DNA of 62,745 bases from a virus: positions 1 to 62,745 of the IMG/VR virus record IMGVR_UViG_3300030090_000213; one strand, given 5' to 3'. Every line of letters begins with the position of its first letter. Position 1 is the stretch's first letter. Under the pieces are notes generated by a model, which did not search any database, was not told the origin of the DNA, and saw only the letters and a list, made by a program, of their open reading frames with translations. Positions 19,589 through 46,168 of the stretch are shown in pieces. A program made the translations under genes and the position numbers.

Positions 19589-22500
19589 ATGGCTGAATAC
19601 GATATTGGCAAAGGGAAAAAAATAAAAATTCCAGATAATTTAGACCCAGAAACAAGATTACAATTAGCTGAAGTTGTTAAAGATAAATATGGCATTGATA
19701 TAAATCAAACATCAGCACTAGGACAAGTAGGCGAGTTTATAAAAGCAATACCAAGAGGTGCTGCTGGATTAGCTTTAGATGTGCCTACAGGTATTGTTGG
19801 TTTATTTGATATTGGCAACGACAGTAACTTATATAAAGGTCTTGAAGGATTACAAGATAGATTAAGAGAAGATTCTGCATTAGCAGCAGACCCACGATAT
19901 GCTGATAAGTATTCTACAAAACTAGGAGAAGGTATAGGTTCATTCGGACCATTCTTAGGTGCAGGTATGGTAGGTAGAGCACTAGCTAAAGCACCAGGAG
20001 CAGCTAAGGGCATACTATCACCAACATTTACAGCACCAACAGCTTTAGCAATACCAACAGGTATAGCAGCACAAGGCGATAGACTACAGATGGCTAGAGA
20101 AATGGGCGAAGATGTAAGTGGTTTAACTGAAACTACTGCTGAATTATTTGGTGGTCTTATAGGTATAACTGAAGTATTACCTGTTGCTAGTATTTTAGGT
20201 AAAGTATCTAGTAAAACAGATTTAAACATAAAAGAAAGATTAGTATCTGCATTACAATCAGGTGCATTTGAAGGTGGACAAGAGGTAGCTGCAAGTATAT
20301 TGCAAGATTTAACAGCTAAAGGTCTTTATAGTGAGGACTTACCTATAGCAGATAGTATGTTTGAAGAGTTTACTATTGGCGGTATTATTGGTGGTGCTGC
20401 TGATTTAGTTGTTACTAGCATGGCAGGTAAAAGTTCTGCTAGAAGAAAACAACTAGAAGAAGATAATTTAAGAGCTGATGAAAATAAAGCTCAGTTAATA
20501 AATGCAAAAAAAGCTGACCTTGCAATGGAACAAGGCACTCTTGAAGAAATACAAGATATACCACCTACTATAGTTCCACAACTTATAGCACCTGAAGAAC
20601 TTGGAGTAGAGCCTTCAGTAGAAGTAATAATGACTCCACAAGAACAATTTGCTGTTGTTGATATTACTAATCCTGAAGCTCCTGCACAAGTTGATATAAA
20701 AGATACAGAAATAGAAGCTATAAAAGTAAGAGATAAGATAACAAAAGACTTTAATAATAAAAAATTAAAATCAAAACTAGATAACGATACATATAACTTA
20801 GGACTAATTAATAGTTCTACTGCTTACGAAATAGGGCAAAGTTTAGAAGATAGTAGAGCTAGTGATGTAACTATTCAACAATTAATAAATAGTGTGCCTA
20901 AAGATTCTAAACAAGAGGTAATTCTTAGAGGTTTAGTAAATAGTTTTGTTGCACAAAATCCAGGCAAAACTTCTCGTAGCTATCCTAGATTATCTATGAC
21001 AAAAGCTAAAGAATTACTAACGCCTAAACAGTTTAATGAATTTGCATCTGCATATGCACAAGGAGTATTTAAAGCTTCTGAAAAAAATGGTGAGCCTTCT
21101 ATTGTTGCAGATAAAGATAAACCAAATACATCAGCTAAATATATAAAAGAAATAGCTGAATCTAAAAATATAGATTTAGATTTTCAATCACCTGCTGTTC
21201 AATATGCAGCAGAAAAATACACAGGTACGCCTGAGTTTAAAAAAATGAAAAAAGGTCAAAAAGAATTATTTTTGGCTAAACTTCATTCACTTCCTAAGTT
21301 CAATTCAAGAACAACTTTCCCAGACTTTAGACCAAGAGATTATTCTGCACAAGATATGGCAGATTTTGTTGCTGAAATGAAAAGCAATAATATGACTTTT
21401 AATAAAGCATCCTTAAAACAAATGGATAGGAATGAACAATTCCTTGATGATTTAATTTATAGCAATAGAGCAGAAAAAATAGAAGGCACTAATAACTATA
21501 AGATAAGAGATAACTTTGAGTTTGATATAGCTAGAAGAGCAGAAGGTTTTAATGAAACACCAGAAGAGTTTGGTGCAAGACTTACTGCAGAAGGTAAGTT
21601 GCCTCCAGAAACTATTGCAGAATTAGTACAACAAGAAACAACAAAACAAGAAAGATTATTACCACCTGCAGAAGTAATACCTAAAACTATTAATTATGCT
21701 GAGACTTTAGAGCAAGGCAAAACTAATAAGTTTGCACAAGAAATAAGAAAAACAATGGATGCTAGAGGTCTTAAAGAGACTGGTATTGTTATAAGTGATG
21801 ACATAATCTCTACTAGCACATTAAGACAAATAGAAGGTGAAATAAAGTACGACCCTAGTCAAGTTAGAGCAACAGAAACACAAGGAGCTGTAGAAGGAGA
21901 ATATGATAGAAATACAGATACTATTTTCTTATCTCTTAATGCAGTAAATCCTGATGGTAGTGCTACTGATGTAGAGATACAAGAAAGACTTAACAAAGTA
22001 TTAGACCATGAGATGATTCATGCTCTTCGTGCAAAAGATTTAATTACTAAAGCAGAATATAGTTATTTAACTAAAATGGTTAAGCAAACTAAATTTCCTA
22101 AACAAAATCAAACTTTTTATCAAGAAGCTATTAATAGAACTAAGCGTGAGTTTGAAAATAGAAATTTAACAGATGCGTTTAAAGAAGAATATATTGTAGA
22201 AGAAGCTATAGCAGAACTATTTAGACAAAAAGATTTACTGGTTAATACTCCTCCTAAAGTAGAAGGTATCTACAATAAGATTATTGAGTTCTTTAAATCT
22301 ATGGGTCAAGCTATGCGTAGCTCAGGATATAAGAGTGCTACAGAAATATTTAATGATATTGAATCAGGCAGGATTGGCAGAAGAGAAAGAGGTGTAGTAA
22401 GAACTACTAGGATTGGAGATAAGGGATTACAATCATTTAACTTTGCTACAGACTTTTCACAATTAGATGAATCTGCGGTTAGACCAACAATAATTCCTGG

Positions 22501-25500
22501 TGATGAAATAAAACAAACTCTAAAGCCTACAGGTATTAGACCTTTAACTATACCAAAGCCTAAACCAACACCTCCTACGCCTCCAGCAGGTCCTACAACT
22601 CCTCCTGCAACACCTTCTACAACACCTACAACTATTTATAATACTAAAAAATTAACAGATAAAGAGTATATAGCTGAAAGGTCAAAAATTCTTAAAGGAT
22701 TGCAAGATGCAAAAGTATTAGATAAAGATATATTTGATAAAGATGGTAATGTAACTAAAACTATTAAAGGTAATAATGATTCTATAAAAATGATGAAATG
22801 GTTAATTGATAATTCACCAAGTCAAGATTACAAAATTATTGCACAAAAAGTTCATAAATCTTTATTAGCATTAAAAAAACAAGGTAGAACATTTCCTCTT
22901 AAATTAGAAGTAGGTGAAAAACAACCTGATATGCGAGGTACAGGACAAGCTGCTATACAGCCAAGTGATATGAATCCAATGGAACCATATAATTATAAAA
23001 CATTCACTATGCTTGTTAATGATGGTAGCTTAAAAAGAATAAATGCATTTGCTAATACTTCTGAATGGAGAAGAGGCAATGGAGTTCATTTTGAAGCTTT
23101 ATTACATGAAGGAATACATCAAGCTACATTAGCTCAAATATATGCTGCTCAACATAATTTAATTACTAGAAAAGGAACTAAAACATTTCAAGAAAGTGCA
23201 TCAGGTAAAAAAGTTAAAGCTGCACATAAAGAACTTGCTATACAAGCAAATAGAGTAAAAGGTTATTATCAAGAAAGAATGAGATTTTATAAAAATCTTG
23301 CTGCAAAAATAACAAAAAGAGAGACAGCCGAAATACAAAAAAAAGCAATAGAAGAGTACAAATCTATTTATAATAATGCACCTACTATAGAAAAAGATTT
23401 AGCAGATATTTATATTATTAAAGATTCAACAGGTTTTATATATGCTAGAGATGACAACTCTTTTAATGGCGTATCTGTTCAAAAGAGAATGTTTAATGAT
23501 TATAGAATTAAATATCAATTATTTTCTAATGAAGCTCAATATAATGAAGATGTATCAGAGTTATTAACTTTTGGATTAACAAATAGAGACTTCCAAGAAA
23601 TGCTTGAATATATACCTTTAGGCAAAGATGCTACTAATAGTGTATGGAATAAATTTGTAGAAACAATTAGAAAATTATTAGAGATACCTGCAAAATTAAA
23701 TACAGAATTATCTGCATTTCTTAAAAATGCTTCTACTTTATTAGACCTTAAAACAGAAGGTTTAATAGCACCAACTCCTGTAGGAGAAACTGCTGCTCCT
23801 ATAGATAAAGAAATACCTACATTTAGTAGAGCAGCAGACCAAGCTTATTTTAATAGAGAAAGAAGAAATCAAATAATATCTAATTTAGAAGCAGGTATAA
23901 AAAATAAACAAGCACAGTTAAATCAAGAAAGAGGACTTATGACTGATGCTACTGCTAAAAGATTAGAAAGAGAAATAATAAATCAAAGAAATGAAATAGC
24001 TGAGTTAAAAGCTGGAGATTTACCTTTTTTTAGTAGAGCAGCTACAGAAACACAACCTCCATACATGGACTTTAATCGTCAACAAATTAGAGACTTTAGT
24101 AGTAATAAAGTTGGTTTTTATAATGGAGTAGAAATACCTTTAACTCATGTTACAAGAATGAATGTTGATGATTTTTTAAAACTTAGCACAATTAGTCAAA
24201 ATCAAATTGATGAAATAATAGAAGAAGGTCCATCAGTTTTTGGTTTTTCTCAACAAGATGAACCTGGCTCATTTAAACCTATAAATAATAGAAGAATGGC
24301 TGATGCTGTATTTGACCCAGAAATTGCAGATACTGCATTAACTGCTTCATTGCCAAGTTTACAAATTAAAAATGATGGTCAAGTAATTAGCCATGAAGGC
24401 AGACATAGAGTTGCATTAATAAAACAAGGTGGTGGTAGAACTGTTCCTGTATTTATACATTTTCCTGAAGGTAATGTAGAACAAAATATACCTAATCCTA
24501 GTGGTCAAACTTTGCAAGAACAGGGTGTTACTTTTTTAAAAAATCAATATCCTGGAATATTTAAAGATGAATATGGTGATTTTCAAACAAATGAATTTAG
24601 TAGATTTGCTGTTCCTATAAATAAACTAAGAGAAATTGCACCTTTACATAGAGATAGTGCCCAAACTAAAGATAAATTAGATTATGCAGTACAAGTTGCT
24701 ACTGCTCCTGATATTTTAGAAAGCACAAAAGATACAGTTGCAAGTGCATCTGAATATGATATTAGGATGGCAAGATTTTTAGCATCACAAGATATACCTA
24801 CATTTAGTAGAACTAATTTAATACCTAAAGATACTGAAGTTCCTTTTGATTGGGCAAGTAATAATCGTTTTGAAACTGGTGCAATAATAGACCAATTAAA
24901 AATGAGTAGAGAAGAAGGTGGTAATAGAGATAATCCTGCACCACTTAAAATGGCTATAGTTGAAGCATTTAAAGGTAGGAAAAACAGACCTTTACTAAGA
25001 GCTAGTAAAAAATTCTTAGAAAAGTTTACAAACAAAAAAGGTAATTTAGTTTTATTTAGAGCTTTAAATATTCCTGAAGGTGAAAAGATTAAAAACTATG
25101 GACAGCTTCCACAAGATTTATTTGCAAGTACAACATTAGATAGTAGAAAAGCATTAGAAATAGGTCGTATGTTATTTAATAGAGCAAAAGAAGAAAGAAG
25201 TGAAACATGGAATATTGAAATACTTAGATATGAAGTTCCTATGAGTAAGGTAAAAGGTTATGTGCCTATGTTACTTAAAGCTATGGAATCAGATTATATT
25301 ACAGACTTTAGAAGTGATATGGCTGGTTCAGGAATTATGTACCAAGAAGAATTAGATGCAGCAATAGAAGAAGCAGATGCAAAAGGAGATTTCTATAAAT
25401 ATCAAGGAGAACAAACAATAGAAGAATTATTTGCCGATGCTATGTATAAATATGAAGAATATATAGCAGAAGCAGAAGTTGTTGCTGACCTTCGTGGCAT

Positions 25501-28500
25501 CAAACCAACATATCAATATTCTCCAGAAATAAAAGATAGACAAGCTAGTTTAATTAATGATGTGCCATTATTTAGTAGAGGTAGAAGAGATAGTAAAAGA
25601 AAGTGGGATGAACAATATTATTATGTTGCTAAAAAAGAAGATGCTAATAGAATTTTAAAAGAAGGTTTTGCTGTTGATGATTCACAATTTTTTTATAATC
25701 CAGATACAGAAATAGAAACTCCAGGATTAGTAGTATTTACTAATCCAGTAGATGCTATTGCTTATCATAGAAGCGTAGATTGGAGAGAAGAACTATCTGA
25801 TTTAGTTTTAATAGCTGTTAAAAAAGGTACTGACAGAGATATTGGTGCTTTAAATTGGCAACCTAATCCAAATTCTCTTGGATTACAAGGTCAACTACGA
25901 GGTCTTAGTGGAGAAAAAACTAAAGGATTACTTAAAGATGAAACAAATACATCTTTATATTTAGATGCAGATAATAATTTAGATTATTTTAAAAATGTTA
26001 ATAACATATTAGGTAGTGCTACATTAGAAGAACTTACTCAAACAAAAATTAATCCATACTTTGGTAGAGCAATAGATAGAACTGGTGAAGTTCCGCAAAG
26101 ATTTTATAGTCCTGAAATGACTGATATGGGAGACCCATTACCTTCAGAACAAGTTAAATCTGTTATGGAAGGTAAAGGATTACCTATGAAACCAATAGGT
26201 AATGAAACAAGAGGTTTAGCTTCATCAAAAGAAGAACTTGCAAATATTGTTACTAAATATATGAATGATATTGCTAATATATTAAATCCACCACCAAATA
26301 CACAAAAAAATATACAATTAAAACAAGCAATAGAAGAAGCCGAAGAAACAGTTAAACAAACACCTAGGGGTTCAATACCTTATTATAATTTAAATGCCTC
26401 AGACACAGCTTTAAAGATTGCTATAGACTTTAATAAAGACTTATCTGCTAAGGCACCTGATGATATACCTAATTTTTCAAGACCTACTCTTGATGGATTG
26501 CAAGATAATCTACAAGAGTTTATTAAAAGAACAGGTGGAGAAATATTACCTGACCAATCTTGGGGTGCAAGAGTAATAGAAATTGTCAAAGACCCTATTA
26601 CATCTATTAAAAATTTCTTTAAAGAGTTTAGACAAAGATATATTGACCAATACGATACTGCTACCAAAGTACTATTAGCTGGTAAAAATAAAGAATGGTA
26701 TTTAAAAATAGATGAAAGAACAGGTAAATTAAGAATAAATCCTAAAACTGGAAAACCTTGGACAGAAGAAGAAGCAATAGCAGCAGCAGAACAAGTAACT
26801 CTTGCTAATATGTTTGCAAATGCAGGTGCAGAACAATCAGTAAGAATGTCTGATAAATCAAGAGGTGTATTTCAAGGTATGCTTACAAGAGGAATACCAA
26901 CTGATTTAATAGATGGAGTTGAATCTTTAGTAAAAACAATACCTTTACCTCTTGTTGATGCTAATGGTAATAAAACTGGTAAAACAGGTGGTCTTATACA
27001 AATACTTGCACCATTATTTTCTAATCTTAAATTAAATTTAGAAGCTGTTTTTAAAAGTTATGCTATGTTAAAAAGAGCAAAAAGTCTTGATGAAAGTGGT
27101 AGAGAAATAGATACACCAGTTAAACCTAAAGACTATGTTCTTATACAGCAAATAGAACAACAACATCCTGAAGTGGTAGAAGTTTATAATAATTATCAAA
27201 ATTGGAATAATGCTTTAATTAAACTTGCAGAAAGAAAAGGTATTTTAAGTGCAGAACAATCTGCATTATGGAGAGAACATTCTTCTTATTATCCTTTCTA
27301 TAGGCAAATGGTTGATGATAGTGGCATTAAAGGACCTAAAATTGCAGGTGGTTCACTACCAGGAAATCCATTAGATATACAAATAAAAGGTTCAGAAGAA
27401 ATTATTGACGCAGACCCAATAGAAGCTATATCAAGAAACTCATTATCTATTCTTACAGCAGCATTAAAAAATGATGCAATGAATAAAATAGTTACAAACT
27501 TAGAAACAATGGGATTAGCTCAAAAAATATCTGCAAAAAACGCAGGTACAACTGATAGCTTATTCTTCTTTGAAAATGGTAACAAGCAACACTATCAGGT
27601 AGATGACCCTAGACTGGTCTATAGTTTACAAAATGTTGGAGGAGTAGCTCCAGGTGCTATAGGAAAATTTTTAGCAGTACCAGCAGGGCTACTTAGAGAT
27701 ACAGTTACAAGAGACCCAGGCTTTGTTGTTATAAATATTTTAAGAGATACCTTATCTTCTGCTGTAACAAGTGGTGCACCATATACGCCTATCATTGATT
27801 CAGTTAAAAATATGTTTGGTAGCATGGAAGAATTAGAACAGTTTGGTGTTCTTGGTGGCTATGACTATTCTGTTGATGAGGGTAGTGTAAAGCAATTTAT
27901 TACTAGAACTATGCGACAACAGGGACTTACACCAAATAATGGTATGTCTCCTACAAGTGCTTTCTTTAAGCTATGGGATGGTCTTGGAGCACTTACTACT
28001 AAATCAGATGGTGCAACTCGTAAAGCAGTCTATGATGGTGTTTATAAACAGTTAAAAGAGCAAGTTTATAGAAATCCTAAAACTGGTAAATACGAAAATA
28101 TGCCTGAAGCAGTTGCACAATCAGAAGCGGCTTATCAAGCACAAGAAATAATTAACTTTGGAAGGCGTGGTTCTGATTCATTATTTAGAATTATTACTGC
28201 TGCAATACCATTCTTAAATGCAAGAATACAAGGTCTTGATGTATTACATAGAGGATTAACTGGACAATATTCTGCTGTAGAAAAACAACAAGTTGGAGAA
28301 TCACTAAAAGATGTGCAATCAAGAATATTTAGAAGAACATTCTTTAATGCAGGATTACTTGTAAGTCTAACAGCACTTTACTACATGATGGTAAGTGATA
28401 CAGATGAATACAAAAATCTTAAACGAGAAGTAAGAGATGATAACTGGGTCATGCCTATAGGCAATGGTAATGCAGTTAAGATACCTATTCCATTTGAAGT

Positions 28501-29329
28501 AGGTATGTTATTTAAAGCTATACCAGAAAGAGTATTTGATATGACTATGGGCGATGATGCTTTTACAAGAAAGTCTGTTGATGAAGCTATGACATCTATT
28601 GGCAGACAGGCTCAAACTTCTTTCAACATACCATTCTTTCAACCTGGTGGTGGAATACAATTATTAAAACCAATATCAGAAGTAATAAATAACAGAAATA
28701 CTTTTACTAATACAGAGATTGTTCCCTACTATCAACAAAAGAAAGAACCTGGACTACAATCAAGACCAACTACCAATGAGTTTGCAAGAGTATTAGGTGA
28801 AGCTCTTAATTTATCTCCTGCAAAGATAGAGCATGTTATGAGAGGTTATACAGGAACACTTGGTGGATATGTATTAAGTGTTATAGATACTATCACTAGA
28901 GGAGCTACAGGAAGTCCTCTAATACCTTCCAACTATCAACTAAGTAAAATGCCAGTCTTTAATAGACTATTACTTGATTTAGATAAGTCGGGTGGTTATC
29001 AGCAACAGTTTTATGAGTTAAGAAATGAGGTTGACAGGGCAGTAGCAACTATCAACTCTCTACAAAAACAAAGAAGATTTGATGAACTATCAGCTTACAG
29101 AAGCAATATGCAAGGTGTGTTGAATGTCAAAGGTCAAGTGAGAGCGATAGAAAGATACTTAGATAACTGGAGAAAGCGTAGAGATAGAATCTATCAAGAT
29201 GAAAACCTATCTATAACAGTCAAGTCAGATATGATAAGAGATTTAGAACTAGAAAGAGATATGCGACTAGCTATGGTTCCTGAATTGAGGAAGAAAGCTA
29301 ACATTCCTATTTTCAGTCTTAACCTCTAA
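19589..29329 (+). CDS. Giant polyvalent protein, 3246 aa
   Basis: Recognisable segments: Gly/Ala-rich hydrophobic region (~50-290); zincin motif HEMIH (~808) with a distal EEAIAELF; Pro/Thr linker (~985-1010); second zincin motif HEGIH (~1173); a ParB-like segment with HEGRHRVALIKQ (~1600); ADP-ribosyltransferase-like segments (~1820 LVLFRAL, then FASTTLD; and ~2000-2080); a large helical C-terminal region (~2300-3246) typical of polyvalent phage proteins (RDPGFVVINILRDTLSSAV). Modules are separated by a recurring xPxFSR tag near residues 1411, 1480, 1738, 1994 and 2296. It is probably packaged and ejected with the DNA. It overlaps the convergent gene at 29267 by 63 bases. Confidence 0.85.
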   Translation: MAEYDIGKGKKIKIPDNLDPETRLQLAEVVKDKYGIDINQTSALGQVGEFIKAIPRGAAGLALDVPTGIVGLFDIGNDSNLYKGLEGLQDRLREDSALAADPRYADKYSTKLGEGIGSFGPFLGAGMVGRALAKAPGAAKGILSPTFTAPTALAIPTGIAAQGDRLQMAREMGEDVSGLTETTAELFGGLIGITEVLPVASILGKVSSKTDLNIKERLVSALQSGAFEGGQEVAASILQDLTAKGLYSEDLPIADSMFEEFTIGGIIGGAADLVVTSMAGKSSARRKQLEEDNLRADENKAQLINAKKADLAMEQGTLEEIQDIPPTIVPQLIAPEELGVEPSVEVIMTPQEQFAVVDITNPEAPAQVDIKDTEIEAIKVRDKITKDFNNKKLKSKLDNDTYNLGLINSSTAYEIGQSLEDSRASDVTIQQLINSVPKDSKQEVILRGLVNSFVAQNPGKTSRSYPRLSMTKAKELLTPKQFNEFASAYAQGVFKASEKNGEPSIVADKDKPNTSAKYIKEIAESKNIDLDFQSPAVQYAAEKYTGTPEFKKMKKGQKELFLAKLHSLPKFNSRTTFPDFRPRDYSAQDMADFVAEMKSNNMTFNKASLKQMDRNEQFLDDLIYSNRAEKIEGTNNYKIRDNFEFDIARRAEGFNETPEEFGARLTAEGKLPPETIAELVQQETTKQERLLPPAEVIPKTINYAETLEQGKTNKFAQEIRKTMDARGLKETGIVISDDIISTSTLRQIEGEIKYDPSQVRATETQGAVEGEYDRNTDTIFLSLNAVNPDGSATDVEIQERLNKVLDHEMIHALRAKDLITKAEYSYLTKMVKQTKFPKQNQTFYQEAINRTKREFENRNLTDAFKEEYIVEEAIAELFRQKDLLVNTPPKVEGIYNKIIEFFKSMGQAMRSSGYKSATEIFNDIESGRIGRRERGVVRTTRIGDKGLQSFNFATDFSQLDESAVRPTIIPGDEIKQTLKPTGIRPLTIPKPKPTPPTPPAGPTTPPATPSTTPTTIYNTKKLTDKEYIAERSKILKGLQDAKVLDKDIFDKDGNVTKTIKGNNDSIKMMKWLIDNSPSQDYKIIAQKVHKSLLALKKQGRTFPLKLEVGEKQPDMRGTGQAAIQPSDMNPMEPYNYKTFTMLVNDGSLKRINAFANTSEWRRGNGVHFEALLHEGIHQATLAQIYAAQHNLITRKGTKTFQESASGKKVKAAHKELAIQANRVKGYYQERMRFYKNLAAKITKRETAEIQKKAIEEYKSIYNNAPTIEKDLADIYIIKDSTGFIYARDDNSFNGVSVQKRMFNDYRIKYQLFSNEAQYNEDVSELLTFGLTNRDFQEMLEYIPLGKDATNSVWNKFVETIRKLLEIPAKLNTELSAFLKNASTLLDLKTEGLIAPTPVGETAAPIDKEIPTFSRAADQAYFNRERRNQIISNLEAGIKNKQAQLNQERGLMTDATAKRLEREIINQRNEIAELKAGDLPFFSRAATETQPPYMDFNRQQIRDFSSNKVGFYNGVEIPLTHVTRMNVDDFLKLSTISQNQIDEIIEEGPSVFGFSQQDEPGSFKPINNRRMADAVFDPEIADTALTASLPSLQIKNDGQVISHEGRHRVALIKQGGGRTVPVFIHFPEGNVEQNIPNPSGQTLQEQGVTFLKNQYPGIFKDEYGDFQTNEFSRFAVPINKLREIAPLHRDSAQTKDKLDYAVQVATAPDILESTKDTVASASEYDIRMARFLASQDIPTFSRTNLIPKDTEVPFDWASNNRFETGAIIDQLKMSREEGGNRDNPAPLKMAIVEAFKGRKNRPLLRASKKFLEKFTNKKGNLVLFRALNIPEGEKIKNYGQLPQDLFASTTLDSRKALEIGRMLFNRAKEERSETWNIEILRYEVPMSKVKGYVPMLLKAMESDYITDFRSDMAGSGIMYQEELDAAIEEADAKGDFYKYQGEQTIEELFADAMYKYEEYIAEAEVVADLRGIKPTYQYSPEIKDRQASLINDVPLFSRGRRDSKRKWDEQYYYVAKKEDANRILKEGFAVDDSQFFYNPDTEIETPGLVVFTNPVDAIAYHRSVDWREELSDLVLIAVKKGTDRDIGALNWQPNPNSLGLQGQLRGLSGEKTKGLLKDETNTSLYLDADNNLDYFKNVNNILGSATLEELTQTKINPYFGRAIDRTGEVPQRFYSPEMTDMGDPLPSEQVKSVMEGKGLPMKPIGNETRGLASSKEELANIVTKYMNDIANILNPPPNTQKNIQLKQAIEEAEETVKQTPRGSIPYYNLNASDTALKIAIDFNKDLSAKAPDDIPNFSRPTLDGLQDNLQEFIKRTGGEILPDQSWGARVIEIVKDPITSIKNFFKEFRQRYIDQYDTATKVLLAGKNKEWYLKIDERTGKLRINPKTGKPWTEEEAIAAAEQVTLANMFANAGAEQSVRMSDKSRGVFQGMLTRGIPTDLIDGVESLVKTIPLPLVDANGNKTGKTGGLIQILAPLFSNLKLNLEAVFKSYAMLKRAKSLDESGREIDTPVKPKDYVLIQQIEQQHPEVVEVYNNYQNWNNALIKLAERKGILSAEQSALWREHSSYYPFYRQMVDDSGIKGPKIAGGSLPGNPLDIQIKGSEEIIDADPIEAISRNSLSILTAALKNDAMNKIVTNLETMGLAQKISAKNAGTTDSLFFFENGNKQHYQVDDPRLVYSLQNVGGVAPGAIGKFLAVPAGLLRDTVTRDPGFVVINILRDTLSSAVTSGAPYTPIIDSVKNMFGSMEELEQFGVLGGYDYSVDEGSVKQFITRTMRQQGLTPNNGMSPTSAFFKLWDGLGALTTKSDGATRKAVYDGVYKQLKEQVYRNPKTGKYENMPEAVAQSEAAYQAQEIINFGRRGSDSLFRIITAAIPFLNARIQGLDVLHRGLTGQYSAVEKQQVGESLKDVQSRIFRRTFFNAGLLVSLTALYYMMVSDTDEYKNLKREVRDDNWVMPIGNGNAVKIPIPFEVGMLFKAIPERVFDMTMGDDAFTRKSVDEAMTSIGRQAQTSFNIPFFQPGGGIQLLKPISEVINNRNTFTNTEIVPYYQQKKEPGLQSRPTTNEFARVLGEALNLSPAKIEHVMRGYTGTLGGYVLSVIDTITRGATGSPLIPSNYQLSKMPVFNRLLLDLDKSGGYQQQFYELRNEVDRAVATINSLQKQRRFDELSAYRSNMQGVLNVKGQVRAIERYLDNWRKRRDRIYQDENLSITVKSDMIRDLELERDMRLAMVPELRKKANIPIFSLNL

Positions 29330-29672: not shown

Positions 29673-29686
29673 ACTGGTAAATATTT
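29673..29686. repeat. CCAGT element (half-site)
   Basis: ACTGGTAAATATTT, one member of the family built on TATTTACCAGT. It lies just upstream of the 29647 gene, 37 bases after the end of rusA. A second copy at 29720-29731 overlaps the rusA stop codon. Confidence 0.6.
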
Positions 29687-38803: not shown

Positions 38804-39060
38804 AATTAAAAAATCACGCAATCAAATATTAGTTTCAATAATATAATGTATTTGATAGCAAATTGCAAGAGTTATTAACAACTTTTTAACACTTTTTCCA
38901 CAGACTTATCCACGGCTTAAAAACCAGTAAATATATTATCTTCAGTCCACTTCAGAAATATCAATGTCAACACGACCCCACCCCAAACAACACCAGTAAA
39001 AACAATATACCAGTAAATATTTTTACCATCAATTTTTTTGATGGTAAACACATCCACTTT
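38804..39060. other. Candidate replication origin
   Basis: An AT-rich stretch with no gene. It holds two DnaA-box-like 9-mers, TTTTCCACA (38894-38902) and TTATCCACG (38906-38914), three bases apart in the same orientation, then three CCAGTAAA repeats (38933, 38992, 39009) and a TTTTTACCATC/GATGGTAAA-type hairpin near 39021-39050. It lies between the primase operon and the ribozyme operon. Confidence 0.45.
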
Positions 39061-39121: not shown

Positions 39122-39424
39122 TTATATATCTTGCACTTCAACTTCTTCAATTTCATCTTTAGCTGTAAATCCAACAACCTCTACAATGTCATCATTAGCT
39201 GTAAATCCAAAATGTTTTGGGTTAGGGATGTTTAAGTTTTCCCTTTCCTTATATAAAACATCTTGCACTTTATGATTAATTGAAACCAAAGTATTAAAAT
39301 ATTTAACTAGAGCCAAATCAATATCTGATTTTTCTTCTAGTTCCCTATTAATCTTTGTATAGATTTCGTTGCAAGTTCCTATGTTTACTTTCAAAGTAAA
39401 TTCTAACAATTCCCTATTAGTCAT
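39122..39424 (-). CDS. Hypothetical protein, 100 aa, last gene of ribozyme operon
   Basis: Coupled to the previous gene by ATGA. Mostly helical, with a degenerate repeat near the C-terminus (FGFTANDDIVEVV, then GFTAKDEIEEVEV). No family is recognised. A terminator follows directly. Confidence 0.65.
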   Translation of the reverse strand: MTNRELLEFTLKVNIGTCNEIYTKINRELEEKSDIDLALVKYFNTLVSINHKVQDVLYKERENLNIPNPKHFGFTANDDIVEVVGFTAKDEIEEVEVQDI

Positions 39425-39682: not shown

Positions 39683-39741
39683 AAACTGTTTCATGCCTTT
39701 AGGCAATCATCAGTAGAAAATACACATTTTCTATACAGTTT
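39683..39741 (-). ncRNA. Hammerhead ribozyme 1 (type III)
   Basis: Minus strand. Stem III AAACTG/CAGTTT plus the A-U pair; cleavage triplet GUA (cut between 39734 and 39733); stem I TAGAAAAT/ATTTTCTA with a GTGT loop; core CTGATGA (39713-39707); stem II TGCC/GGCA with a TAAA loop; core GAAA (39692-39689). All invariant core residues are present. The base of stem II is a T-T pair rather than the usual G-C, as in the other copies. Confidence 0.85.
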
Positions 39742-39874
39742 TGGCAAAATTGTCGCTAGGAGAACTCGCCTGTTGCAAAGTTAAGAGTAGGTTAAGGGCA
39801 TAAGATACCCTAAAAAACCCTACTCTTAAATCGCATTAGAAAATTTCTATCTGTGTTTAGTCAGATAAAAATAT
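39742..39874 (-). other. Structured 3' region between ART-like gene and ribozyme 1
   Basis: 133 bases with no gene. On the minus strand AAGAGTAGG/CCTACTCTT (39829-39782) encloses AGGG/CCCT, and ATCTG/CAGAT forms a small hairpin just after the ART-like stop. It is the longest gap in the ribozyme operon. It could protect the 3' end of the upstream message. Confidence 0.45.
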
Positions 39875-39883
39875 TTACCAGTC
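39871..39883. repeat. CCAGT element overlapping a stop codon
   Basis: ATATTTACCAGTC. On the minus strand GAC TGG TAA encodes the last two residues and stop of the ART-like protein, the same arrangement as at rusA. Confidence 0.6.
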
Positions 39884-40570
39884 AATGGTTTTATCAGCAT
39901 AAATGATTTCATCTTCATTCCTATTACTTAAATACGCAATAGCTTCTGATTTATTAATAGTCTTTTCAAAAACTTCATAATCAAAATTAAATCTATTAGC
40001 AAACCATTCAGCTATTTCTTTGCTTAAAGTCCAAGACAATCCTTTATCATTAAGACCACCTCTATAGATTTTTATTTTATTAGGAAGTTTATCAAAGTAT
40101 TTTTTATCATCATCGCACATAATTAAATGTTTATCTTTGATAAAATAATCGTTTAACAAAAAATACCAATAATCTAAATTTTCATAGACATTTTCAGTAT
40201 CACACCAAATATATCTAATTAAATCCCAATACTCATCAGCTTTTGGCTTCCACCATTGCTGTATGGCATCGTAAACAAAAGGCACTCTATAAGGTCTTGT
40301 AATAAAATTTACAATTTCCATATCGTTATTTGATTTAGCTTCTTGAAATGCTTTGCTTTTAGCTTCATAACTTTTATTAGCTATATCTATTTGCAAAGGA
40401 TGTTCGCTGTAATATCCAACATAAAACTTATGATGTATCATTTTCATTCCACTTGACAATGTAATAACACATTTAGCTAGTTCGCTGTTAAGTTTTATAT
40501 CTTCATCAACATCATTAATATTTTTAATGCTATAAATTATATCTTCATTGAGTTTTTTATTTATATCCAT
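39875..40570 (-). CDS. ADP-ribosyltransferase-like protein
   Basis: 231 aa from the ATG at 40570; a longer frame would run into the ribozyme. The C-terminal third shows the R-S-E layout of ADP-ribosyltransferases: KIYRGG (R170), KGLSWTLSKEIAEWFANRF (S179) and IAYLSNRNEDEIIYA (E219/E221). The N-terminal two thirds are not recognised. Phage enzymes of this kind (T4 Alt, ModA) modify host RNA polymerase or translation proteins; that target is inference. Confidence 0.72.
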   Translation of the reverse strand: MDINKKLNEDIIYSIKNINDVDEDIKLNSELAKCVITLSSGMKMIHHKFYVGYYSEHPLQIDIANKSYEAKSKAFQEAKSNNDMEIVNFITRPYRVPFVYDAIQQWWKPKADEYWDLIRYIWCDTENVYENLDYWYFLLNDYFIKDKHLIMCDDDKKYFDKLPNKIKIYRGGLNDKGLSWTLSKEIAEWFANRFNFDYEVFEKTINKSEAIAYLSNRNEDEIIYADKTIDW

Positions 40571-40577
40571 AATAAAA

Positions 40578-40591
40578 GACCCTCCAAGGTC
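40578..40591 (-). promoter_or_regulatory. Shine-Dalgarno hexaloop hairpin, gene 40570
   Basis: Minus strand GACC[TTGGAG]GGTC: a four-pair stem closing the UUGGAG loop, eleven bases before the chosen start. Confidence 0.6.
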
Positions 40592-40603
40592 AGTTAAGTT
40601 AAA

Positions 40604-40657
40604 ATCCTGTTTCATGGTTTCCCAATCATCAGTTGCAATACACATTGCAAAACAGAA
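40604..40657 (-). ncRNA. Hammerhead ribozyme 2 (type III)
   Basis: Stem III TTCTG/CAGGA (one G-T); triplet GUU, cut between 40651 and 40650; stem I TTGCAAT/ATTGCAA with a GTGT loop; CTGATGA at 40632-40626; stem II TGG/CCA with a GAAA loop; GAAA core at 40613-40610. Stems differ from copy 1 with pairing kept. Confidence 0.85.
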
Positions 40658-40680
40658 AATTTGACTAGCAAAGAGAAAAA

Positions 40681-40696
40681 TATTTACTGGTAAATA
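40681..40696. repeat. TATTTAC-TG-GTAAATA palindrome
   Basis: Perfect 7+2+7 inverted repeat, extended by GAGAAAA/TTTTCTC to about 32 bp with one conserved mismatch. It lies between the stop of the 40727 gene and ribozyme 2. Confidence 0.8.
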
Positions 40697-40726
40697 CTTT
40701 TCTCAACGCTAATCTGCTAGAAATTT

Positions 40727-41548
40727 CTAGGCTTTTTTCTTCCTTGGTCTAGGATAGATTTCAGAAGTTCCAAATAACTTCTTCTTTTCTTCTGCAGTTC
40801 CAAAGTGAACTATAGCTTTAAACAATCTTCTAACCATGGACTGTATTGCTAAAGTTTTTTGTTCGCCAGTTCTAGCACACACTTTAGGCTGTAATCTAAC
40901 AACTTGTCTTATGGTTAGTTGTTTTTCTTCATCAGACCAAAGACCCAAGGCTTGATTATGCAAAGAAGCATACAATCCATTCATAAATCCACCACGAAGA
41001 TTATCTTCTTGTAGAATTTTGTACCCTCTTATTGCCATACCAAGAACATCTAAATCTGAATATCTATAAGACCCAAATGATGTCCAATCAATAATTTCAT
41101 CAGACACACTTGATTTACTTACAGCTTCTTCAAGTTTAGACTTCATTGCAGTATTAATATCAGAATTTTCATCTAAACATTTATTAATGATGTTAGTTGT
41201 TTTATCAACTGTTGATTTTTTCTTTGCAGAAAATACATCAACGACATTTGCATTTACAACTGGCACCATTCTTGATGTAAGTTCATCAATAACATTTGTT
41301 TCAATACCCAATTCTCTAGCCATTTCTCGTAAAGCATTACCTCTACTTTCATGGTCATCTAGTAAACTGGCAACTACAATCTTTTCTAATTGCTTTTCAG
41401 ATTTAATCATCTTTGAAAACACATAAAAAAGTTGTGTTGAAATATCAATACTATATTTATTCTTCACATTTTCTAACCATGTTTTAGTTTCATCTGAAAC
41501 ATGAGTAGAAACTGGAGAACACTCGTTTTTATAATTATCATTTTTCAT
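40727..41548 (-). CDS. Hypothetical protein, 273 aa
   Basis: Start ATG 41548, downstream of a GGAGGG in a hairpin loop. The N-terminal ~120 residues are helical (HVSDETKTWLENVKNKYSID, KMIKSEKQLEKIVVASLLDD). The C-terminal part is basic (RQVVRLQPKVCARTGEQKTL, MVRRLFKAIVHFG, PRPRKKKA), suggesting nucleic-acid binding. No family is recognised. It lies between the ART-like and VWA genes, each separated from it by a ribozyme. Confidence 0.68.
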   Translation of the reverse strand: MKNDNYKNECSPVSTHVSDETKTWLENVKNKYSIDISTQLFYVFSKMIKSEKQLEKIVVASLLDDHESRGNALREMARELGIETNVIDELTSRMVPVVNANVVDVFSAKKKSTVDKTTNIINKCLDENSDINTAMKSKLEEAVSKSSVSDEIIDWTSFGSYRYSDLDVLGMAIRGYKILQEDNLRGGFMNGLYASLHNQALGLWSDEEKQLTIRQVVRLQPKVCARTGEQKTLAIQSMVRRLFKAIVHFGTAEEKKKLFGTSEIYPRPRKKKA

Positions 41549-41555
41549 AATTATA

Positions 41556-41571
41556 TGTCCCTCCAAGGACA
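41556..41571 (-). promoter_or_regulatory. Shine-Dalgarno hexaloop hairpin, gene 41548
   Basis: Minus strand TGTCC[TTGGAG]GGACA: a perfect five-pair stem, the clearest member of the family. Confidence 0.65.
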
Positions 41572-41580
41572 GTTTTTAAG

Positions 41581-41637
41581 TTTCTGATTTCATGCTTTTG
41601 CAATCATCAGCCAAGATACACATCTTGATATCAGAAA
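41581..41637 (-). ncRNA. Hammerhead ribozyme 3 (type III)
   Basis: Stem III TTTCTGA/TCAGAAA is perfect over eight pairs including the A-U; triplet AUA, cut between 41629 and 41628; stem I TCAAGAT/ATCTTGG (one G-T) with a GTGT loop; CTGATGA at 41610-41604; stem II TGC/GCA with an AAAA loop; GAAA core. Confidence 0.87.
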
Positions 41638-41657
41638 TTTGATGCGGGAAGAAAAAA

Positions 41658-41673
41658 TATTTACTGGTAAATA
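41658..41673. repeat. TATTTAC-TG-GTAAATA palindrome
   Basis: Same 16-bp sequence as at 40681, again flanked by A-rich and T-rich arms that extend the pairing. It lies between the VWA gene stop and ribozyme 3. Confidence 0.8.
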
Positions 41674-41701
41674 CTTTTTCCTCCCCACCATGTTGTCGTG
41701 A

Positions 41702-43030
41702 TTAAAGACTAGAGAAATCTATAGCAACTTTTTCTCCAAAAGGAAGTTCATTGCTCCAATTATTCTCGCCACCACTTAATGCCCATATTACTGGAACATT
41801 TGGCTCAACTTCTGAACTACATTGTCCATACGCATCTGTAAAGTAGATAAATGCTATCACATCATCTGTATCATCAGTATAGTCATTGTATAAGTTGAAA
41901 GGCGGGTCAAAATCAGTTCCGCCACCGCCACGACAGACAAGTTCCAACTCTTCACAATCCAAGTCGTATTCATCCCACCACTCGCCTTTTGAGTTTTTGT
42001 GGACAGTAGTATCACAATAACAAACTCTAATTTTATTGATACCGCACTCTTCCGCTAGGGAATTGATTTCAGTTGCAAAAACATTAAGTTCTTCTTCTGA
42101 AACACTACCGCTTGTATCAATAGCAATAACAAGTTCTCCGCCTTTTGGCTCTTTATCTCTACTAGGTAAATTAATCCCTCGCCAAGAATGTCTTTTATTC
42201 AATCTTGTCCAAGTAGGATTATTAGAGTAAACACTTTGCAATAAATCTCGCATCACATCTACCCAATCAACATAACTTTCGTTTAGCTGTTCCATAGCTT
42301 TTCCAAAACCACCAGTAGGATTTTCTCCAATACTATCTAGCTTGTCAGCCATTGTGATAGTTCTTTGAAGTTCCTCTTGTAGTTCAGCCATTTCAGTAGG
42401 CGATAATTCTTGTCCATTTTCATTAGTTGGCATCCAAACTTCGCCACTAGGTAATTCAACATCAGCAAGTTTCTCTTCAAGAGATTTACTTTGTCCATTA
42501 CCAGTAGCATCAGTATCAGCATCTTCGTTAGCATCCGCATCAGTATCAGCATCAGCATCGCTATCAGAATTGCCATTATCAGAATTAGATTGCAAATTCT
42601 CTAAAGCATCGTTTAAAGCATCTTCATCATTAGATAAAGTTCTATAAACTTGCTCTGCACTTTGTCCCTTATACTTCCTATCAATTAATCCGCCCTCTGG
42701 TAAAGGCATATCTAAATCGTATGCTATCCAAGAGTTAATTACATAGTCAGTTGCTATGTTCCAAAGTTCGTGATTTCGCTTCCCTTTTCTTAAAGGATGT
42801 TCCCAAATAACATGACTTGCTTCGTGAACTAATACTGCTTGGATTTCTTCATCTGATATTGATTTAACAAATTCATCATTCCAATAAATATTAATTCCAT
42901 TTGTAGCCATAGTTTTACATCGCTCATTATCCTCAATCAAAGTAAGTTTTAATAACATAGTAGCCATACCAACATTACCTTTCATAAGTTTCGCTCTAGC
43001 TTTAATCATTCGCTCTTCACTATTTAACAT
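41702..43030 (-). CDS. Zinc-metallopeptidase/VWA protein (DUF2201-type)
   Basis: 442 aa from ATG 43030. The N-terminal domain has the zincin motif HEASH (69-73) followed by WNIATDYVIN. Residues ~150-185 are a low-complexity Asp/Ala/Asn linker. The C-terminal domain is VWA-like with a MIDAS motif IDTSGSVSEEE, then GGGGTDFDP. This two-domain plan matches the predicted metal-dependent peptidase family COG3864 (DUF2201), whose bacterial genes often neighbour a MoxR-type ATPase, as here. Substrate unknown. Confidence 0.85.
   Translation of the reverse strand: MLNSEERMIKARAKLMKGNVGMATMLLKLTLIEDNERCKTMATNGINIYWNDEFVKSISDEEIQAVLVHEASHVIWEHPLRKGKRNHELWNIATDYVINSWIAYDLDMPLPEGGLIDRKYKGQSAEQVYRTLSNDEDALNDALENLQSNSDNGNSDSDADADTDADANEDADTDATGNGQSKSLEEKLADVELPSGEVWMPTNENGQELSPTEMAELQEELQRTITMADKLDSIGENPTGGFGKAMEQLNESYVDWVDVMRDLLQSVYSNNPTWTRLNKRHSWRGINLPSRDKEPKGGELVIAIDTSGSVSEEELNVFATEINSLAEECGINKIRVCYCDTTVHKNSKGEWWDEYDLDCEELELVCRGGGGTDFDPPFNLYNDYTDDTDDVIAFIYFTDAYGQCSSEVEPNVPVIWALSGGENNWSNELPFGEKVAIDFSSL
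42475..42585 (-). repeat. GATGCN low-complexity repeat inside the VWA gene
   Basis: Short units of GATGC/GATAC encode alternating Asp/Ala/Thr residues (SDADADTDADANEDADTD). It is a flexible acidic linker between metallopeptidase and VWA domains and a possible site of slippage. Confidence 0.7.
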
Positions 43031-43034
43031 AATT

Positions 43035-43050
43035 AATTCCTCCAAGAATT
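43035..43050 (-). promoter_or_regulatory. Shine-Dalgarno hexaloop hairpin, VWA gene
   Basis: Minus strand AATTC[TTGGAG]GAATT: a five-pair stem. The identical element precedes the 44141 and 45351 genes. Confidence 0.6.
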
Positions 43051-43061
43051 TTATTTATGAG

Positions 43062-43116
43062 TTTCTGTTTCATGGTTTCCCAATCATCAGTTGCGATACA
43101 CATCGCAAGACAGAAG
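43062..43116 (-). ncRNA. Hammerhead ribozyme 4 (type III)
   Basis: Stem III TTCTG/CAGAA; canonical triplet GUC, cut between 43109 and 43108; stem I TTGCGAT/ATCGCAA with a GTGT loop; CTGATGA; stem II TGG/CCA with a GAAA loop; GAAA core. Stem I differs from copy 2 at a paired position (C-G for A-T). Confidence 0.87.
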
Positions 43117-43127
43117 CAAAGAAAAAA

Positions 43128-43143
43128 TATTTACTGGTAAATA
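43128..43143. repeat. TATTTAC-TG-GTAAATA palindrome
   Basis: Third perfect copy, 23 bases past the stop of the 43167 gene and just before ribozyme 4. Confidence 0.8.
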
Positions 43144-43166
43144 GTTTTTCCCTGCAACTCATTGGC

Positions 43167-44141
43167 TTACTTTTTATACATATCGTTTAAAAATCCGCCT
43201 TTCATTTCATCTGCTAAATCACTAACACTATCTTTTAAATCATCTGCAAGTTGTTTTCGCTTCTTGTCAGTATAATCATCATCATCACGAAGTGAATTAA
43301 CATCATTTATTTTTGCAAAGACAGTAACTAAATTTTGATGTGCTTCCGCTATCTTTTTGTCATTCCCTAGAATGTCAGAATTGATACTTGGAAGAGTATC
43401 TAAAAATTGTCTAAACTTATCAAAAGATGAATTTTTGAAAAACCCTCCACCTTTTGTTTTTGGGTCATAAGAACTTAACTTATCAGCTAAATGTTCTACA
43501 CTTTCCAAAAGAGTTTCAACAGTAGTTCTAGTTATTGCTTCAACATTTTTAGTTGCTCTTTTTAATGCATCGCTTTCAATCTTCTTGCGAAGTTTTTGTG
43601 ATACATTTAAACGAATATCCTTACTATTAAATTGTGGAACAGTACCAAGTTCAAAATCAAATCTGAATTTAGTCGCTATTTCATCTTTAGTTGGATAATC
43701 AGACAACTTAAAAGCATCGCCAAGTTTGTATTTATTCGCTTCAATCAAATTATCATAATTATCAAGAAACTCTTTAACTTCTTTATCAAAGTCAACTTTA
43801 GCATCGTTCACTTTATCCATAAGTGTATCAAGTTCTTGATTGGGACATAATCTCCAACCGCTTAAAACTTTACCCTCAAAGTCGCTAGTATTATCATCCC
43901 AAGGGACAGTCATAGGATAAAAATAGTTATACCTAAACTGATTGATAATTCTACGAAAATACTTATTCGTTTCCTTACCAAAGATATACTTCGCAACATG
44001 AAGTGAACTTTCATATGCTTTTTGGTCTATTGCTAGACCCTCTTTTAAATCCTTATCTGATTTAATACCGCTTGGATGCTTCGTTGTAAGTCGCACTAAA
44101 GTTGCATTTTCAGATAAAGTATTTGCATTTTCTTTTTTCAT
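43167..44141 (-). CDS. Hypothetical protein, 324 aa, between MoxR and VWA genes
   Basis: Start ATG 44141. Almost entirely helical and charged (HVAKYIFGKETNKYFRRIIN; LRKKIESDALKRATKNVEAI; LLESVEHLADKLSSYDP). Its position between a MoxR ATPase and a VWA partner recalls DUF3150-like proteins in similar clusters; I cannot confirm that family from sequence alone. It may be the third component of that system. Confidence 0.68.
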   Translation of the reverse strand: MKKENANTLSENATLVRLTTKHPSGIKSDKDLKEGLAIDQKAYESSLHVAKYIFGKETNKYFRRIINQFRYNYFYPMTVPWDDNTSDFEGKVLSGWRLCPNQELDTLMDKVNDAKVDFDKEVKEFLDNYDNLIEANKYKLGDAFKLSDYPTKDEIATKFRFDFELGTVPQFNSKDIRLNVSQKLRKKIESDALKRATKNVEAITRTTVETLLESVEHLADKLSSYDPKTKGGGFFKNSSFDKFRQFLDTLPSINSDILGNDKKIAEAHQNLVTVFAKINDVNSLRDDDDYTDKKRKQLADDLKDSVSDLADEMKGGFLNDMYKK

Positions 44142-44145
44142 AATT

Positions 44146-44161
44146 AATTCCTCCAAGAATT
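44146..44161 (-). promoter_or_regulatory. Shine-Dalgarno hexaloop hairpin, gene 44141
   Basis: Minus strand AATTC[TTGGAG]GAATT, identical to the one before the VWA gene. Confidence 0.6.
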
Positions 44162-44173
44162 ATTTATTAATAA

Positions 44174-44229
44174 ATTCTGATTTCATGCTTTTGCAATCAT
44201 CAGTTGGGACTACATCCCAATATCAGAAT
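44174..44229 (-). ncRNA. Hammerhead ribozyme 5 (type III)
   Basis: Stem III ATTCTGA/TCAGAAT is perfect (eight pairs with the A-U); triplet AUA, cut between 44221 and 44220; stem I TTGGGA/TCCCAA with a five-base loop; CTGATGA; stem II TGC/GCA with an AAAA loop; GAAA core. Stem I is rebuilt relative to other copies yet fully paired. Confidence 0.86.
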
Positions 44230-44243
44230 GAGCGGAAAAGGAA

Positions 44244-44255
44244 TATTTACCAGTC
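44244..44255. repeat. CCAGT element inside a GGAATATTTA/TAAATATTCC hairpin
   Basis: TATTTACCAGTC here lies in a longer inverted repeat (44240-44270) whose arms GGAATATTTA and TAAATATTCC pair. It follows the MoxR gene and precedes ribozyme 5. Confidence 0.65.
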
Positions 44256-44286
44256 AATAATAAATATTCCTAGTCGCTTCGTGAGT

Positions 44287-45351
44287 TTAGATTTCTAAAT
44301 CTTGGTTATCAATTTTGAATTTAGAATATACATCGCACTCTTTGAGTTCGTTTCTTAATCCAGTAATTTTTCTAACAAAGAATATAGAAAATTCTACAGT
44401 TGAAAGTTGCTTCAAATAATTTAAAGCATTTTCAAAGTAGTCATAAACATCGTTGTCATTCGCTCCATTAATTGCAGTTGTTAATGCAATCGTTGTCGCA
44501 TAGCAAAGACCCGCATTATCTACAACTTCAACATTTTTGCCCTTACATATATCAGATATGTTTGGCACATCATTTTGAAGTGAAATAAAGTTCATAAGTT
44601 CAATCGCACTTTCTTGACCAACATCGCCCTCAAACAATTTTTGCATCAATCGTTTTGGCGGGTCAGTTTTCAAAGTATCGCTTAACCTTGTCCAACTTCT
44701 TGGACTTGGCTGTGGGTCATTACATTTAGGGTCAAAGTCCCATAGTAGCTGTGGCATAAATCTAATAAGTCCTTGAACATTTAAGTCAATGTCGTTCTTA
44801 TCAGCCCACTCTAACCAATCATCTACATCGTGAGTAAACTGGATAGCAGTAGTTCTATCTTGGCAATGCCTTAATATCTTATTTGCTCCGCTTCTATCAG
44901 TATGTCTATTACCCGCTAAAACAATTTTCCACCCACTAGGAAAAACATAATCGCCTATTCTTCGCTCTTCGTTTTTTCCTTTTGGGTCTAGTAATTGTCC
45001 TATCGTTGCTTGAACTGATGAATGTGCTTGTGCAAATTCATCCAAGAAAAATAGACCCTCGCCACCTCTAGGCAAGTTGCCTAAAAATGCTTTCTTTTGA
45101 GTTCCCTCTTCAATGTAAGGCAACCCTCCCAAGTCAATACTTTCAACTAATCCCAATCTAAAAGAGATAAAACCAAATTCATCTTCTTTTGGATTAGTGT
45201 TATCAGTCAAAGTACGACCATTTGCTATTTCCTCCGCAATCTCTTTAACTATTGCGGATTTACCAACTCCAGTACCACCAATTAAAAATGGAATATTACT
45301 CCCTTTTAAAATATGTAGACATGAAGTTTTTGCTTCACTAGGTTTAAACAT
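44287..45351 (-). CDS. MoxR/CobS-type AAA+ ATPase
   Basis: 354 aa from ATG 45351. Walker A IGGTGVGKSAIV (~24-35), Walker B GLFFLDEFAQ (~99-108) and sensor 1 KIVLAGNRHTDRSGANKI are those of MoxR-like AAA+ proteins. The PRGGEGL loop before Walker B is typical. These ATPases pair with VWA proteins to remodel or activate protein complexes; the partner is two genes downstream. Confidence 0.9.
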   Translation of the reverse strand: MFKPSEAKTSCLHILKGSNIPFLIGGTGVGKSAIVKEIAEEIANGRTLTDNTNPKEDEFGFISFRLGLVESIDLGGLPYIEEGTQKKAFLGNLPRGGEGLFFLDEFAQAHSSVQATIGQLLDPKGKNEERRIGDYVFPSGWKIVLAGNRHTDRSGANKILRHCQDRTTAIQFTHDVDDWLEWADKNDIDLNVQGLIRFMPQLLWDFDPKCNDPQPSPRSWTRLSDTLKTDPPKRLMQKLFEGDVGQESAIELMNFISLQNDVPNISDICKGKNVEVVDNAGLCYATTIALTTAINGANDNDVYDYFENALNYLKQLSTVEFSIFFVRKITGLRNELKECDVYSKFKIDNQDLEI

Positions 45352-45355
45352 AATT

Positions 45356-45371
45356 AATTCCTCCAAGAATT
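45356..45371 (-). promoter_or_regulatory. Shine-Dalgarno hexaloop hairpin, MoxR gene
   Basis: Minus strand AATTC[TTGGAG]GAATT. Upstream of it an 8-bp GTTAGCAA/TTGCTAAC hairpin follows the ribozyme 6 cut site. Confidence 0.6.
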
Positions 45372-45402
45372 TTAAGTTTAATATTTGTTAGCAATTTGCT
45401 AA

Positions 45403-45464
45403 CACCAATAACATCCCAAATAGTTGAGATGTTTTCATAGCATTTCAGCTAATCATCAGTTGGT
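45403..45464 (-). ncRNA. Hammerhead ribozyme 6 (type I, circularly permuted)
   Basis: Strand order differs from the other five. Minus strand: stem I 3' strand ACCAA; CTGATGA (45459-45453); stem II TAGC/GCTA; GAAA; stem III hairpin AACATCTCAA/TTGGGATGTT (ten pairs, one G-T); triplet UUA, cut between 45409 and 45408; stem I 5' strand TTGGT. Stem I is therefore the open stem. The stop codon of the 47-aa gene is the first TGA of CTGATGA. Confidence 0.82.
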
Positions 45465-45603: not shown

Positions 45604-45619
45604 TAACCCTCCAAGGTCA
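45604..45619 (-). promoter_or_regulatory. Shine-Dalgarno hexaloop hairpin, 47-aa gene
   Basis: Minus strand TGACC[TTGGAG]GGTTA: five pairs with one G-T. It lies just downstream of a 10-bp TTTACTAACA/TGTTAGTAAA hairpin. Confidence 0.55.
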
Positions 45620-46168
45620 GTTTCTTGTACCCAACCATTTACTAACACCATGTTAGTAAACTGGACACTCATTCAGCACGTTAATTCGTGGACTGTTGGA
45701 GCAGTCCCAAAAGTTATATATCTTTAAGATTGATTATTAAAATTAATTAGTCTTTATAAGTTCCTTTATCTATAAAGCAAAAAGATACTTTCCTCTTGGT
45801 TTTGCGGGTCTTGTTAAAATCATCACGACTTGAACTAACCTATTGTTACGCACTAGCTACTTTAAGAGCGAATTCCTTATTGGACTGGACTGACCTTTTC
45901 TTCCCAATAAATCTTGTTGGACTTTTTTAACACCCTCCAACACTAGCACTAGGGCTGTTGATTTAACAACTCTTCAACTTTACCTTTTTCAAGACCCTTG
46001 CGGGTAGTTGGCTACAGTTTAAAGACATAATCGTTTTGGTCTGTGTAGAAACAGTATAAGGCAAGTGAACATCATCTGCAACATCATATTAAATATTTAC
46101 CAGTCCACTATTTTTGCTATCGTTTTGTGAGCATTATATTTTCTTCATATCTGCGATAAGATTTATGC
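45620..46168 (-). promoter_or_regulatory. Long leader of the ribozyme operon and terS upstream region
   Basis: 549 bases without a convincing gene. Near the 47-aa gene, three adjacent hairpins on the minus strand: GGACTG/CAGTCC, CACG/CGTG and TTTACTAACA/TGTTAGTAAA. TTATTGG/CCAATAA and TTGGA/TCCAA lie further upstream, and a CCAGT element at 46094-46104. A weak leftward promoter TTGCTT-16-TATAAA can be drawn near 45760-45785. No hammerhead core is found. Short open frames exist without ribosome sites. Confidence 0.4.
46094..46104. repeat. CCAGT element (half-site)
   Basis: TATTTACCAGTCC, the rightmost member of the family, 65 bases upstream of the terS start and at the far end of the ribozyme-operon leader. 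Confidence 0.55.

Follow-up and report, generated by a model that had tools for sequence, protein, structure and literature searches.

Does a phage operon with a hammerhead-like sequence in nearly every intergenic gap make a message that cuts itself between its genes? The window analyzed here, a complete IMG/VR virus record of 62,745 bases, encodes terminase subunits, a portal, a major head protein, a primase/helicase, an exonuclease, a Sak-like annealing protein and a tail spike. Its closest terminases (~58–61% identity) are those of seawater and lake phages such as 023Pt_psg01, HTVC027P and DSL-LC04, and because of these relatives we infer that this uncultivated phage is probably marine. At the DNA level, the only similarity to named phages was a match between the repetitive part of the VWA gene and short records of Listeria phages. 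An N4-like identity, suggested by the ATPase and VWA genes and a 3246-aa protein, was abandoned, as neither gene order nor terminase agrees with it. The 3246-aa protein is encoded at 19589–29329, and its C-terminal part matches PHROGs of unknown function; Planktothrix phage Pag-Yong1 carries an 8.3-kb "large polyvalent protein" gene together with ATPase and VWA genes.

The leftward operon (45599–39122) starts with a 46-aa ORF, followed by the AAA ATPase, DUF3150 and DUF2201/VWA genes and then by four genes without known function. The genes lying between successive hammerheads, here named A to F, are:

44287..45351, minus strand: MoxR-like AAA ATPase gene, between A and B (phrog_1297, E=1.8e-61; PF07728)
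43167..44141, minus strand: DUF3150 gene, between B and C (PF11348, E=4e-7)
41702..43030, minus strand: DUF2201 metallopeptidase-like/VWA gene, between C and D (PF13203, E=1.8e-30; PF09967)
40727..41548, minus strand: gene of unknown function, between D and E (no family matched)
39875..40570, minus strand: gene of unknown function, between E and F (phrog_4776, E=1.2e-40)

A first-pass annotation had placed one hammerhead in each intergenic gap of this operon except the overlapping ATGA pair (39421–39424), and we found the six motifs exactly there on the minus strand, with the core CTGATGA at 45459, 44203, 43090, 41610, 40632 and 39713. A full descriptor (CUGANGA, stem II, GAAA, stems I and III, U16.1 and an H17 that is not G), run at first for permutations I and III and later also for type II, matched these six places in the window and no others; with permutations I and III it gave no match in 100 dinucleotide shuffles. 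In the list below, E values come from R1, a model built from a 38-sequence type III alignment whose members include copies C and D of the window.

45404..45464, minus strand: hammerhead A, type I, gap separating the small first ORF from the AAA ATPase gene; predicted cut 45409/45408 (UUA)
44174..44229, minus strand: hammerhead B, type III, ATPase/DUF3150 gap; predicted cut 44221/44220 (AUA); E=2.6e-16
43063..43115, minus strand: hammerhead C, type III, DUF3150/VWA gap; predicted cut 43109/43108 (GUC); E=4.1e-19 (training-set member)
41581..41637, minus strand: hammerhead D, type III, gap between VWA and the next gene; predicted cut 41629/41628 (AUA); E=4.0e-19 (training-set member)
40605..40657, minus strand: hammerhead E, type III; predicted cut 40651/40650 (GUU); E=4.9e-18
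39683..39741, minus strand: hammerhead F, type III; predicted cut 39734/39733 (GUA); E=5.8e-13

All six copies have the core strands CUGANGA and GAAA joining three helices, the A15.1-U16.1 pair and an NUH cut site, and the first description was accurate for the cut triplets, for the sequences of stem II and for the U-U at 10.1/11.1. The consensus G10.1-C11.1 pair, which is a consensus and not a requirement, is thus absent from every window copy. The copy at 45459 is a type I hammerhead (stem I open, stem III closed); in the remaining five stem III is open, which makes them type III. A core that occurs in two circular permutations in a single operon has hardly any explanation other than a hammerhead. 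Hammerhead A has stem I ACCAA/TTGGT, stem II TAGC/GCTA over the U-U and a 9-bp stem III, and the TGA stop of the small first ORF sits inside its core. The minimum-energy fold was the hammerhead for copies B, C and F.

Because a descriptor that demands pairing could itself mimic covariation, we drew sequences with a pattern of loop and core letters only, without any complementarity. Among the 75 distinct sequences obtained in this way, stem I was complete in 73, U16.1 was present in 73 and stem II was formed in 74, and 72 obeyed every rule with all three stems. RNAalifold, applied to the gapless 38-sequence type III alignment, returned exactly the hammerhead unaided, and 13 of its 15 pairs had changed on both sides. 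The covariation was 0.951, compared with 0.06–0.09 for slid partners, and supported stems I, II and III of the type III fold. Position N7 varies freely (T, C, A, G), and the core is common to types I and III. Outside the core, UGUGUA in loop I and NAAA in loop II are conserved, as in loop-loop contacts; no contact model was made. The hammerhead fold is supported at the sequence level by covariation, circular permutation and the free N7, and also by canonical G-C copies at the same junctions of relatives, as described below.

The first-pass annotation had proposed Rfam hammerhead models as a check, and these failed to support it: no hammerhead match was obtained at E≤10 with either the window or the operon alone. 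We regard this silence as uninformative because even the canonical copies of relatives fall well short of the cut-offs. When three relatives with canonical copies were searched at lax settings, hammerhead matches appeared in only one of them (L025), and these were weak: 28.1 bits against a gathering score of 56.3 for RAGATH-1-hammerhead (RF03152), and 20.5 bits against 48.5 for Hammerhead_3 (RF00008). The window copies, unlike L025, matched neither RF00008 nor RF03152. A gathering score is a criterion for detection and does not define a hammerhead, and the failure on both the window copies and canonical relatives suggests that many phage hammerheads go undetected.

The placement of the motifs is conserved along with the genes. 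A protein search with the ATPase drew 28 viral contigs; junctions were counted in the window and 27 of these, leaving out the distant L027, with a permissive check that tolerated a single additional base behind the core and accepted either A or T at position 9. Hammerheads were present at every ATPase/DUF3150 (26/26), DUF3150/VWA (25/25) and VWA/next-gene (19/19) junction. Upstream of the ATPase gene they occupied 23 of 26 sites, and the three exceptions carry instead the leader element described below because the ATPase gene comes first there. Position 9 was T in one copy (L020). One extra base between A9 and G10.1 recurs (CTGATGA-T-GACCC...GGGTC-GAAA), in the DUF3150/VWA gap of L004, L006, L008, L012 and L013 and upstream of the ATPase gene in L009 and L012. 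Since some copies have the extra base and one has T9, not every copy need be active. In the more distant L027, no ribozyme was found between the ATPase, DUF3150 and VWA genes. No hammerhead was detected in the first 50 kb of each of the relatives named by the terminase search, HTVC027P, HTVC023P, DSL-LC04, 023Pt_psg01 and Pag-Yong1.

R1 recovered the five type III copies of the window and no further site. It found seven copies on the 53-kb contig G015. Many other contigs carry arrays of three to six, as does the GTDB bin L262. Outside the ATPase-drawn set, arrays of five to seven were seen on the L116 contig (G015:36691–41274) and in L075, L209 and L262; that of L209 consists entirely of G-C type I copies, and that of L262, a GTDB bin (isolate AlinenLipids), mixes G-C and U-U.

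We consider it likely that these elements, five of type III and one of type I, are self-cleaving hammerhead ribozymes that cut the operon message into mostly single-gene mRNAs; cleavage is inferred, as no RNA data are available. Each ribozyme would cut itself at its UH site while the leftward message is being synthesized, turning the polycistronic RNA into mRNAs that mostly carry one gene. A 2',3'-cyclic phosphate would terminate the upstream product shortly after a hairpin, which is stem III for a type I copy and the upstream hairpin for a type III copy. The 5'-OH that starts the downstream product would likewise lie at a hairpin or close to one, namely stem I for type III and a conserved 8-bp hairpin for type I, and this product would retain its own Shine-Dalgarno sequence. 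Ends guarded in this way should protect each mRNA from both 5'-end-dependent and 3' exonucleolytic decay and allow the dose of each gene to be set individually; both the stability and the dosing are inferences.

The hairpins themselves are visible and conserved, and flank most of the predicted cuts:

45386..45404, minus strand: 8-bp hairpin starting 4 nt from the predicted new 5' end of cut A
44239..44271, minus strand: hairpin upstream of hammerhead B, core GACTGGTAAATA
43117..43154, minus strand: hairpin upstream of hammerhead C, core TTTACCAGTAAA
41640..41690, minus strand: hairpin upstream of hammerhead D, 18 perfect bp
40663..40714, minus strand: hairpin upstream of hammerhead E
39781..39829, minus strand: hairpin upstream of hammerhead F, TTAAGAGTAGG...CCTACTCTTAA, read from the sequence

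In type I, the predicted cut lies directly 3' of the stem III hairpin, and the 8-bp hairpin follows the cut in all 10 distinct sequences from the window and its close relatives, in three compensated versions (TGTTAGCA, TGCTATCA and TGTAAGTG); it is absent after the type I copies of L027. In type III, stem I would form the extreme 5' end, and most gaps have a long hairpin upstream of the ribozyme.

The core of these type III upstream hairpins is a palindromic motif, ACYRGTAAATA, and it raises the possibility that the ribozymes mainly trim the 5' leaders of separate transcripts, with each type III copy standing behind its own ACYRGTAAATA promoter and cutting soon after transcription begins, as the synthetic-biology insulator RiboJ does. 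Among the copies of the window and its close relatives, the motif occurs within 200 nt upstream of 58 of 68 type III copies (at 23–37 nt in 52 of them) and of none of 24 type I copies. The operon start (46104) carries it too, as do intergenic sites elsewhere on both strands. This leaves room for a role as promoter or operator, and some genes may have their own transcripts. However, the motif is unproven as a promoter, the hairpins of which it forms the core in the gaps extend beyond it, and type I copies occupy junctions without it. We therefore think leader trimming unlikely as the main role.

Several other features of the intergenic DNA were noted. The motif AAAAC-N-ACYRGTAAATATTTTT recurs at 46104, 44254, 39882, 38649, 38548 and 37673 on the minus strand, at 29673 on the plus strand and at about 38900–39050; near 38950 it adjoins a DnaA-box-like TTATCCAC, perhaps marking an origin. 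The Shine-Dalgarno sequence CTTGGAGG of seven operon genes lies in the loop of a small hairpin (45615, 45367, 44157, 43046, 41567, 40588 and 39666, minus strand), the stem of which changes in a paired fashion among genes and relatives (AATTC/GAATT, TGTCC/GGACA, ATAC/GTAT); this hairpin is possibly a site of translational control. The operon leader (46110–45600, minus strand) includes ~430 nt of noncoding sequence with 70–77% identity in several relatives and covarying hairpins, and gave no Rfam match at E≤5. At its 3' end is one more candidate:

45618..45695, minus strand: seventh, hammerhead-like element with a conserved AA insertion before GAAA and an extra core A

Stems I and II of this element covary. 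We did not count it as a seventh hammerhead because stem III has no covariation support and its 5' strand pairs in another hairpin.

The U-U at the base of stem II had been offered as a caveat to the hammerhead reading, since G-C is usual there. It is indeed present in all six copies, and it does not damage the case: a natural U10.1-U11.1 hammerhead is on record in Perreault et al. 2011 (PMC3088659) and is more active than other mispairs. Among relatives, the 10.1/11.1 state alternates between U-U and canonical G-C at the same junctions. The 88 type I copies, mostly drawn by a pattern that leaves 10.1/11.1 free, comprised 57 G-C, 24 U-U, 6 G-U and 1 A-A, and a protein-drawn set of 58 contained 45 U-U, 11 G-C, 1 G-U and 1 C-U. 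The state is linked to the base at the cut site. In type I, A17 was found in 24/24 copies with U-U versus 5/63 with G-C or G-U (Fisher 7e-17), and G-C goes with C17. In type III, A17 went with U-U in 80/90 versus 14/28 (4e-5), which is a tendency only; strict coupling was rejected there, copies C and E of the window being exceptions. Shuffling the cut-site bases within contigs gave p=5e-5, the floor of 20,000 shuffles, in a test that pools the types and corrects only incompletely for shared ancestry. If the 10.1/11.1 pair and the base at the cut site are indeed linked, a textbook ribozyme would gain a new structural constraint.

The same pair leaves room for folds that barely cleave, functioning either as structured spacers or as cutters that are slow and regulated. 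In the consensus of PMC3088659, U-U replaces the most conserved pair apart from A15.1-U16.1, and because all six copies depart from it, cleavage could be slow; U-U is moreover accompanied by A17. On the other hand, U16.1 and the loops are conserved in divergent copies that were not selected by pairing, and the same junctions hold G-C versions. Besides, the common 10.1/11.1 states are only G-C, U-U and G-U, whereas decay would scatter them. Poorly cleaving folds thus appear improbable, slightly more so than leader trimming. A chance resemblance to the hammerhead core by a different motif, such as a UGAUGA-based k-turn or a C/D-box-like element (box C contains UGAUGA), is ruled out for practical purposes by the two circular permutations, NUH in 6/6 copies, A15.1-U16.1, the free N7 and three stems that covary and follow the correct order.

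Self-cleavage by the six hammerheads remains the reading that we prefer, and the one-per-junction placement, conserved with the genes across the lineage, points to mRNA processing as a directly testable idea. A broader proposal is that this is the general mRNA maturation of the operon in this phage lineage, with one ribozyme per junction, hairpin-guarded ends, and U10.1-U11.1/A17 as a distinct functional subclass beside G-C/C17; we put it forward tentatively, with slightly less than even confidence. Cutting of a polycistronic phage message between genes is familiar from T7, the early mRNA of which is cleaved by RNase III into hairpin-ended mRNAs. There a host protein cuts at hairpins, whereas in the window operon the proposed cutting would be done by the RNA itself.

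The role of bacterial and phage hammerheads is an open question (PMC6155905). The first-pass annotation knew of no comparable array, and this was too strong: PMC3088659 describes clustered prophage hammerheads flanking genes, in Clostridium scindens, Azorhizobium caulinodans and, as a triple, Agrobacterium tumefaciens, and already proposes that such clusters process phage transcripts into single-gene or operon-length mRNAs. What seems new, provisionally, is one ribozyme per junction conserved across a lineage together with the U-U/A17 coupling; we did not find these in our searches of open-access literature, and subscription papers were outside our scope. The U10.1-U11.1 variants of PMC3088659 share the mismatch at the foot of stem II and are said there to be more active than all other mispairs; that paper treats them as surprising, whereas in the window lineage U-U is common (24/88 type I and most type III copies) and coupled to A17. 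The prophage clusters resemble the window operon in that several hammerheads flank phage genes. Their cleavage was shown in vitro, and one array, the triple, was active in E. coli as well; the largest tested array named in the text has three ribozymes, and the identities of the flanked genes are not constant. The window lineage differs from these clusters in having one hammerhead per junction over an operon, the same junctions conserved among relatives, mixed types and flanking hairpins.
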